A stretch of DNA of 64,000 nucleotides, taken from the NCBI GenBank assembly GCA_022821495.1, contig JAJEDN010000080.1:1-64000 (forward strand), given 5' to 3'. This document shows, piece after piece, positions 42,133 to 44,639 of this stretch. Both the position numbers and the translations under genes were made by a program. The notes under the pieces are model-generated. The model saw only the letters and a program-made list of their open reading frames with translations, was not told the DNA's origin and searched no databases. Numbering within the stretch: position 1 is the first letter of the stretch; each line of letters begins with the position of its first letter. The DNA comes from Candidatus Poribacteria bacterium. GTDB lineage: Bacteria > Poribacteria > WGA-4E > WGA-3G.

Positions 42133-42259
42133 TATAGTAAAGCCCATAATTATTGAGACACATCCAATCAAAGCGATTCCCATCTTATTCCCCCCTGATA
42201 AGGGGGGTTAGGGGGGTTATCTTCGTAAAAGTGTTCATTTATTTTCGGATTTTACTATA
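42133..42259 (-). mobile_element. TATAGTAAA-ended MITE-like element, copy C
   Basis: TATAGTAAAGCCCATAATTATTGAGACACATCC ... TTATTTTCGGATTTTACTATA. Confidence 0.75.
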
Positions 42260-42302
42260 AATTCAGAAAATAAAGGATTAGAAATAGATGTCAATAACCC
42301 CC

Positions 42303-42497
42303 TGCTAAAGCATGTGGGCTTGTGCGAAGCGTATACCAAACGTTCACTCCACAAGTTAAACTATTTTCTACAGTAATATATCGCAGTCTCTTGGCGTGGT
42401 CGCCTGAGTAATGTTTCGGATACTCCCCTCGTCTGATTCCACTTCGATATTGCGATCTGGAAGGGGCCATACAAACTCCATTGGAGATTTACAAACT
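42303..42497 (+). ncRNA. Candidate omegaRNA upstream of isrB
   Basis: Noncoding 5' region with stems CTTGTG...CACAAG, GAAgCGT-ATACCAA-ACGTTC, GGCG-TGGT-CGCC; position as expected for IscB/IsrB omegaRNA. Confidence 0.45.
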
Positions 42498-43520
42498 ATG
42501 TTTGTTCCCGTTGTTGATAAACACCAAAAACCACTTATGCCCACCAAGCCTTCGCGGGCAAGGAAATGGATGAGAGATAAGAAGGCAACACCGTTTTTCA
42601 AGAATGGCGTATTTTGTCTGCGTCTCAACGTTGATCCTTCTGATAGGTATTTTCAAGAGATTGCCGTAGGTGTTGACCCCGGTAGTAAGAAAGAAGGCTT
42701 TACTGTCAAATCAGAATCACATACCTACTTGAATGTGCAAGCAGACGCTCACAATAAAGTCGGTAAAAAGATTGAAAAGCGTCGTGAGTTGCGGCGAGGG
42801 AGACGTTCTCGTAAATGTCCGAATCGCAAGAACAGGATGAATCGTCTCGGAAATAAAGTGCGTATTCCCGCAGGCACGCGTGCGAGGTGGGATTGGAAAC
42901 TTCGTATCCTTGGCTGGCTCTCTAAACTCTATCCGATCACGCGTGTCTGTGTGGAAGATATTAAGGCACCGACGATAGAACATGCGAAAAAATGGAATCA
43001 GTCCTTTAGTCCTTTGGAAGTCGGTAAGCAATGGTTCTATACTGAAATAGCAAAACGGTGGCAACTGCGAACCCTTCAAGGGTGGGAAACAAAGGCGATA
43101 CGCGATAGGTTATCACTGAAAAAATCGTCAAAGAAACTATCGGAGACTTTTGACGCACATTGCGTTGATTCTTGGTGTCTGGCATATCATAGTGTTGGCG
43201 GTGATAACCTACCGGATAACACGGATATATTCTGTATATCACCGATACCGATCCGCCGGCGAGAACTCCATAGGCAAAACCCACAAAAGGGTGGGAAACG
43301 CCCACGTTATGGTGGAACTACTTGGAATGGATTGGTAAAGAACACTCTCGTTAGACATGTTAGACATGGATTAACCCGTATTAGCGGTTTCAGCGAACAA
43401 GGTATTTCACTATATTCTTTAGAGGGGAAACGCCTCTGTCAAAACGGAAAAACAAAAGATTTTAGGGTGCTAACACGCCTAAATTTCAATTATAGGAGCG
43501 GTGTTTCCTCCGCCTGCTAA
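42498..43520 (+). CDS. isrB: IsrB-like RuvC nickase (IscB family lacking HNH)
   Basis: PLMP motif KPLMPT, RuvC-I VGVDPGSK, Arg-rich bridge KRRELRRGRRSRK, RuvC-II CVEDIKA, RuvC-III DAHCVDSW, C-terminal RRELHRQNPQKGGKRPRYGGT; no CxxC HNH insert. Confidence 0.85.
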   Translation: MFVPVVDKHQKPLMPTKPSRARKWMRDKKATPFFKNGVFCLRLNVDPSDRYFQEIAVGVDPGSKKEGFTVKSESHTYLNVQADAHNKVGKKIEKRRELRRGRRSRKCPNRKNRMNRLGNKVRIPAGTRARWDWKLRILGWLSKLYPITRVCVEDIKAPTIEHAKKWNQSFSPLEVGKQWFYTEIAKRWQLRTLQGWETKAIRDRLSLKKSSKKLSETFDAHCVDSWCLAYHSVGGDNLPDNTDIFCISPIPIRRRELHRQNPQKGGKRPRYGGTTWNGLVKNTLVRHVRHGLTRISGFSEQGISLYSLEGKRLCQNGKTKDFRVLTRLNFNYRSGVSSAC

Positions 43521-43550
43521 AGCAACGGGGTTTCCACACCGAAAACATTG

Positions 43551-44639
43551 ATGAAACAGGTTACAATTTATCGCGAGCCGGGCCGTTATGCGGGGTGGCC
43601 AGCGAACTACGGCATCTGGGCATGGGACGATGAAATCGTTGTCGGCTTTACCGTGGGCTACCACAAATCGGACGGGGGTTTTCATCGCCGCGATCGAGAC
43701 AGACCCTTTACAGGGATGCAAGCACGAAGCTTAGATGGCGGTGAAACATGGCACGTCTCAGAAACACCGTGTCGTCTACCCGCAAGAGGCACACTCTCCG
43801 CAGATGAACATGTGGAGGAACAGCATAGATCTACAGCGGGCGCAGCGTTCGATACACCGCAGCGCGTCGATTTTACGCACCCAGATTTTGCGATGATGTG
43901 CAGCCGATCCGGTCTCAGATCGGGATCGTATTCGTGGTTTTACACCTCTACAGATCGGTGCAAAAGCTGGGACGGTCCCTTTAAACTGCCGATGTTCGGA
44001 TACACCGGCATCGCAGCGCGCACGGATTACCTTGTTTCGGGTGCAGATGAATGCTTGGTATTCCTCACGGCATCAAAATCAGACGGTGAGGAGGGGTTGG
44101 TATTCTGCGCACAGACGACCGATGGCGGTGAATCCTTCTCGTTGTTATCTCAGATCGGGCCTGAACCTGAAGGGTTTTCTATCATGCCTGCAAGTGTTCG
44201 GTTATCGGATTCACGGATTTTAGTTGCGGTCCGGTGCCGCGGTGAAGGTAAAGATGCCCGCGTAGACTGGGAAGAGCGGCTAAACTGGATTGATCTCTAC
44301 GGTTCAGATGATAACGGACAGACCTGGAATTACGTGAACCGACCCGTTGAAAATACAGGACGTGGCGGGAATCCACCCACATTAACGCTGCTTCATGATG
44401 GTAGGCTATGTCTTATCTATGGGTACCGGGACGCACCGCACCGAATGTGCGCGAAGTTAAGTAGTGATGCTGGTGAGACCTGGGGCGAAGAAATCGTCTT
44501 ACGCGATAACGGTGGCGACCCTGACATCGGTTACCCTCGCACGGTCCAACGTCCTGACGGAACTGTAGTAACTATCTACTATTTTGATGAGGAACCCGAT
44601 GGCGATCGGTTCATTGAAGCGACATTGTGGAAGCCGTAG
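43551..44639 (+). CDS. Sialidase/neuraminidase-like BNR-repeat protein
   Basis: SLDGGETWHVSE, STDRCKSWDGPF, TTDGGESFSLLS, SSDAGETWGEEI Asp-box motifs. Confidence 0.75.
   Translation: MKQVTIYREPGRYAGWPANYGIWAWDDEIVVGFTVGYHKSDGGFHRRDRDRPFTGMQARSLDGGETWHVSETPCRLPARGTLSADEHVEEQHRSTAGAAFDTPQRVDFTHPDFAMMCSRSGLRSGSYSWFYTSTDRCKSWDGPFKLPMFGYTGIAARTDYLVSGADECLVFLTASKSDGEEGLVFCAQTTDGGESFSLLSQIGPEPEGFSIMPASVRLSDSRILVAVRCRGEGKDARVDWEERLNWIDLYGSDDNGQTWNYVNRPVENTGRGGNPPTLTLLHDGRLCLIYGYRDAPHRMCAKLSSDAGETWGEEIVLRDNGGDPDIGYPRTVQRPDGTVVTIYYFDEEPDGDRFIEATLWKP

Follow-up and report, generated by a model that had tools for sequence, protein, structure and literature searches.

The locus

The window, that is, the whole stretch of DNA analysed here, comprises positions 1 to 64,000 of contig JAJEDN010000080.1 from a Candidatus Poribacteria genome (5.4 Mb in 133 contigs). 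It carries a 1261-bp element that, judged from its sequence, is an intact, non-autonomous member of the IS200/IS605 type and encodes IsrB, a nickase of the obligate mobile element-guided activity (OMEGA) class; its nicking activity is predicted. The features of the locus are:

42290 to 43550, + strand: whole IsrB element, 1261 bp, without target duplication; ends from about 70 aligned copies
42270 to 42289, + strand: inferred guide ATAAAGGATTAGAAATAGAT, 20 nt of host leader abutting the GTCA end and read into the omegaRNA 5' end
42290 to 42497, + strand: omegaRNA scaffold, 208 nt; alignment of 44 sequences with covarying pairs
42298 to 42318, + strand: 5'-end hairpin with TAAA loop and covarying stem, containing one CCTGCTAAAGCA; the right end in transposase terms
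42483 to 42486, + strand: GGAG, Shine-Dalgarno sequence of isrB, within the omegaRNA 3' end, in the last hairpin
42498 to 43520, + strand: isrB, 340 amino acids (aa), with PLMP motif, RuvC-I, -II and -III, Arg-rich bridge helix and a domain interacting with the target-adjacent motif (TAM) that carries GKR-LC-Q
43494 to 43498, + strand: AGGAG, Shine-Dalgarno-like, directly before the 3'-end stem
43499 to 43541, + strand: 3'-end hairpin, outer stem CGGTGT/ACACCG around an inner TAAA hairpin with the second CCTGCTAAAGCA; the left end in transposase terms
43542 to 43550, + strand: linker AAAACATTG to the element end, 9 nt
43551 to 43554, + strand: predicted TAM, ATGA, overlapping the start codon of the host gene
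43551 to 44639, + strand: host gene at the target, BNR/sialidase-like, 362 aa (PF13088, 2.8e-11), start conserved in relatives

According to the alignment of the copies, the element begins with GTCA at 42290 and stops at 43550, immediately before an NTGA-like tetranucleotide. An earlier note on this DNA had put the ends at 42301 and 43535, which was wrong, as the element is wider. The note had also seen CCTGCTAAAGCA at both element edges. It is indeed present, at 42301-42312 and 43513-43524, but it forms the tip of a hairpin close to either end and is not a terminus. We count CCTGCTAAAGCA 15 times in the 5.4-Mb genome, compared with three times for the reversed control, and since the majority mark the left ends of related elements, they are not due to chance. 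In other copies the stem is altered on both sides (CAAGTCTAAAGACTTG, CAACCCTAAAGGATTG), so that the conserved feature is the hairpin with its TAAA loop. The outer stem at the 3' end, of 6 bp and with a median pair probability of 0.95, covaries too (CGGGCA/TGCCCG, CGGGAT/ATCCCG, CGGCAA/TTGCCG and others). When the joined flanks of 13 copies were searched against 116 genomes, six gave uninterrupted matches across the junction, each in up to 25 genomes, with nothing lost and nothing duplicated.

The 340-aa product is IsrB, as its profile and fold matches indicate. It belongs to the RRXRR family PF14239 (E 6.3e-34), and its best match among solved structures is DtIsrB (8dmb; 2.8e-37 by sequence, 2.4e-43 by profile). 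Foldseek also ranks 8dmb first (9e-24), here with an AlphaFold model of low confidence (mean pLDDT 63.6). The RuvC residues D60, E153, H221 and D224 are invariant among 24 aligned relatives, and no HNH insert lies between RuvC-II and RuvC-III, neither in the window IsrB nor in any of the 24. The stop codon TAA of isrB sits in the loop of the 3'-end hairpin. The earlier note had named the open reading frame (ORF), its PLMP, RuvC and bridge-helix motifs and its HNH-less architecture, and had proposed a profile search, an AlphaFold comparison and a look at the catalytic triad. The ORF and its motifs are real, RuvC-II continues to RuvC-III without an insert, the triad is not degenerate, and the matches leave the IsrB identity standing. 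A PF14239 search of the genome returned 17 matches, 15 of them above the family cut-off and some interrupted by contig ends. In a species-level genome collection, 59 of 59 close relatives fall into Candidatus Poribacteria assemblies; the hosts of the family are sponge-symbiont bacteria.

The noncoding stretch ahead of isrB, earlier estimated at about 195 nt and thus close to the 208 nt measured, holds the omegaRNA foreseen there. In the alignment of 44 copies, 23 of 34 predicted pairs show compensatory changes. The Rfam HEARO model (RF02033) matches sister copies with 22-38 bits, below its gathering score of 83, and these matches begin at the same GUCA first base; an Rfam scan of the window element gave no match. 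The earlier note would have taken a lack of upstream covariation as a refutation; covariation is present. In DtIsrB the Shine-Dalgarno sequence of isrB has the same placement, in SL7 (PMC9581776). The sequence itself shows the exact ends, how the omegaRNA folds, that the catalytic residues are intact, and the rule for the target that is given below.

Guide and TAM

In the empty sites of the other copies the left flank directly abuts NTGA. DtIsrB uses an NTGA TAM 3' of its target, with R323 reading the third and Q326 the fourth base, and an engineered Q326R variant accepts ATGG (PMC9581776). The window IsrB carries the equivalents of R323 and Q326 in GKR-LC-Q. Poribacteria copies that are followed by ATGA or GTGA have R plus Q or T at the TAM-reading positions, and in those followed by ATAA the R is replaced by Q (KQVVL or KQVVF). 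The copies L007, L131 and L119, which are flanked by ATGG, have R at the fourth-base reader; L118 has it too, with ATGG beside its less clearly mapped end. This covariation, which is new here, agrees with the prediction from R323, Q326 and Q326R of DtIsrB. Because the TAM-reading residues track the flanking tetranucleotide, the right tetranucleotide would be the TAM of the enclosed IsrB and the host sequence to the left its guide, with a length of 20 nt by analogy with DtIsrB. That the guide is drawn from the left flank, as the earlier note proposed, is thus supported by empty sites and TAM residues; the boundary is at 42290 and not at about 42300. The TAM of an IsrB may hence be readable from its insertion sites, and the natural pairs of residue and tetranucleotide would provide a ready table for IsrB reprogramming, among them R for ATGG, the switch that Q326R introduced by engineering.

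Landing at start codons

We next considered what the NTGA tetranucleotide is to the host. An NTG was counted as a start codon if the ORF that it opens has 60 codons or more and a short upstream extension, and the rule was applied to the 44 sites at which both ends and a flanking NTGA are present. At 25 of these (57%) the NTG is a start codon. Of all NTGA in these flanks 11% satisfy the rule, and of those between genes 16%; the binomial p values are 2e-13 and 1e-9, respectively, for copies that are not fully independent. A start codon together with a Shine-Dalgarno sequence in the left flank is found at 17 of the 44 sites, against 2.5%. Judged by this strict rule, 11 of 17 ORF-less elements with the same ends are at start codons; four of these belong to the 44 as well. 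Cyanobacterial plasmid IsrBs (31-54% identity) are followed by annotated or evident starts in Stanieria, Leptolyngbya, Dolichospermum and at Nostoc dpdE. The predicted TAM is usually a host start codon, which is new here; we found no report of start-codon landing by IsrB or IscB elements in the open-access literature searched, which is weak evidence of novelty. The NTGA TAM of IsrB would thereby get a reason, namely a start codon plus one base, and host promoter, host leader and RNA guide would form one design.

The alternative that survives best is that we are dealing with an ordinary IsrB whose start-codon excess reflects survivorship: insertions inside genes would be lost and those at start codons tolerated, since NTGA is often ATG or GTG plus A. 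An NTGA TAM alone does make start codons frequent targets: among random NTGA 11% are start-like, and among intergenic ones 16%. However, survivorship would predict roughly the intergenic rate and not 57%, and it leaves the AGGAG-hairpin-linker end, its codon bias and its absence in tnpA-bearing elements, all described below, unexplained. We therefore consider it somewhat unlikely, while taking it as the most serious competitor of the reading preferred here.

Two individual sites are worth recording. On Nostoc PCC 7120 plasmid alpha (L255), an RRXRR/IsrB element ends right before an in-frame ATG, 21 nt ahead of the annotated dpdE GTG; the annotated start may be wrong. In L007 (G000:C46:13374-14942) the element separates the Shine-Dalgarno sequence of a dnaN-like gene, one of a tandem pair, from its ATG. 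We rejected this site as proof that insertion is tolerated in an essential gene, because the genome has four dnaN-like genes.

The trailing end

An exact AGGAG ahead of the 3' stem is found in 45 of 70 copies, and in 57 of 70 the linker behind the hairpin has a length of 7-9 nt. If the hairpin is looped out, the distance from AGGAG to the host ATG is 7-9 nt. In three cyanobacterial elements the host ATG is immediately preceded by GGAG or GAGG. Trailing AGGAG, hairpin and linker are probably a replacement, or split, ribosome-binding site for the host gene, with which the element appears to pay back the gene that it cut off from its own.

One could argue instead that AGGAG is a constraint of the IsrB C-terminus (Tyr-Arg-Ser-Gly) or of transposase binding, given that it lies inside the isrB reading frame in IsrB-bearing copies and that the element end is a transposase substrate. 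Yet the Arg codon at the site is AGG in 35 of 39 copies, compared with 11% elsewhere in the same genes, and the Ser codon is AGC or AGT in all copies, compared with 31%; owing to this bias, coding does not explain AGGAG. Other residue pairs preserve AAGGA or AAAGG, and most ORF-less elements retain AAGGAG or CAGGAG. GGAG is missing at this place from five elements that combine a tnpA gene with the same hairpin, so that the needs of the transposase do not explain it either. Such a constraint is in our view improbable, and we prefer the replacement ribosome-binding site.

Weighing the reading

Overall, an IsrB element with an NTGA/start-codon target, transposition in trans and a replacement ribosome-binding site is the best explanation of the data, and we hold it with good, if not complete, confidence. 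It upholds what the earlier note said about the element, apart from its ends, and adds what was overlooked there, namely the start-codon landing, the trailing end that resembles a ribosome-binding site and the ORF-less partners. Several points weigh against it. About 40% of the copies have no recognisable start codon at the site, and the binomial values overstate independence, because the copies are related. Folding leaves AGGAG unpaired no more than about 66% of the time, and a downstream CTCC can pair with it. Copies of the ATAA class keep an AGGA-like sequence though ATAA is no start codon. The six copies with exact empty sites are copies other than that of the window; for the latter, relatives share the start of the downstream gene but the leader has diverged, so that its empty site is only inferred. 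The AlphaFold model of IsrB is of low confidence, the HEARO matches do not reach the gathering score, and the model does not match the window copy at all.

The last point is also one of two in favour of a dead relic, in which the IsrB ORF is still open and the RNA no longer functional. The other is the P1-like 3' strand, which reads TATTTTC in place of TATTGAC and would pair more weakly with GUCAAUA. But the TTTTC variant is common to many copies, some of them with the other features intact, and the window copy has its full-length ORF, both ends and its TAM residues. We judge a relic to be quite improbable and agree with the earlier note, which took the copy to be probably intact. That the protein is no true IsrB, and instead an IscB whose HNH domain was lost recently, can practically be dismissed, because the NCBIfam IscB model matches only the N-terminal half with a score far under its cut-off, whereas the full-length match and the best fold match are to DtIsrB and all 24 aligned relatives lack HNH.

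Proposed mechanism and mobilisation

The element inserts where a host leader meets an NTGA, the NTG of which is usually the start codon of a gene. Transcription from the host promoter through the leader would then produce guide and omegaRNA together. IsrB with this RNA would recognise an empty copy of the site, consisting of leader plus NTGA, and nick it, and recombination of the nicked site with a filled copy would restore the element. As the insertion separates the gene from its own Shine-Dalgarno sequence, the element would supply a substitute at its own end, namely AGGAG, which the looped-out hairpin would bring close to the host ATG. The gene could then still be translated and the insertion tolerated.

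There is no transposase gene inside the element; Y1 genes are present elsewhere in the genome and in relatives. Intact tnpA elements in the genus share the end hairpin and an ATAA-type flank with the ATAA class of IsrB. Given these Y1 genes, some with the same end hairpin, the element would be a passenger that a Y1 transposase moves in trans. The isrB element at L228:190-1449 has landed precisely on the start codon of a Y1 tnpA, which creates an accidental isrB-tnpA arrangement. Just upstream of the window element, at 42184-42220, lies a C-rich/G-rich repeat, CCCCCCTGATAAGGGGGGTTAGGGGGGTTA; the stretch containing it is 99% identical in the relative G025.

Relation to known systems

Like IS200/IS605 elements such as ISDra2 and IS608, the element has subterminal hairpins at both ends, no target duplication (six empty sites), a tetranucleotide target beside one end and Y1 transposase partners whose end hairpin is the same. 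The right-end cleavage site of ISDra2, TTGAC, is the reverse complement of the GTCAA end here. Unlike ISDra2 and IS608, the element has no tnpA, its target NTGA is read as a start codon, and isrB runs opposite to the transposase-defined orientation. With HEARO RF02033 it shares a similar layout and the GUCAAC..CCCC..UAAA..GGGGC hairpin at which both begin; the sister copies score low against the model, as given above. With DtIsrB from Desulfovirgula thermocuniculi (8dmb; PMC9581776) it shares the RuvC-only architecture, PLMP, the bridge helix and the TAM-interacting domain, an omegaRNA 5' of the ORF, the isrB Shine-Dalgarno sequence in the last hairpin, the NTGA TAM and its two readers. It differs from DtIsrB in sequence (about 32% identity) and in its scaffold of about 208 nt compared with 262 nt. 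Start-codon landing and a trailing AGGAG-hairpin end are not described in the searched parts of the DtIsrB paper.

Elements without an open reading frame

The ORF-less elements (L046, L047, L048, L049 and L190-L214, on C24, C58 and C67 of the genome and in relatives) measure 404-575 bp and have the same ends, with an omegaRNA followed by a conserved RNA of about 200 nt in the place of isrB. Standalone omegaRNA/HEARO loci are reported in Ktedonobacter. The elements here resemble them in omegaRNA and ends; unlike them, they add the conserved RNA. Its core, GTCAGGTC..GAAGCAGC, is like the non-Watson-Crick core of domain IV of the signal recognition particle (SRP) RNA, and an extended stem caps it with a GTGCGAG or GTGACAG loop. 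The pair beside the core changes in step from T-A to G-C in all 23 aligned sequences, which were selected by the core. In the genome of the window, six copies were identified by other means, and five of them keep the core. Rfam gave no SRP match in the ORF-less elements or in the second RNA context described below, permissive thresholds included, so that the likeness is based on the 8+8 nt core, on the conservation of this core and on the flanking covariation. We looked for a transfer-messenger RNA and found none, and a stricter sequence pattern for the ORF-less elements failed to retrieve them.

One may speculate about a bacterial counterpart of Alu, with the start codon as TAM, the leader as guide, the host promoter as driver, the split ribosome-binding site as payback and the SRP-like module of the ORF-less elements possibly loading IsrB or the transposase at the ribosome. 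As a whole we regard this scheme as doubtful. In at least two genomes, the same SRP-like module also occurs in a second, intergenic RNA of about 360 nt (L204:1355-1730, L207:1359-1715 and L194:1493-1728), with a sigma70-like promoter in L204 and L207.
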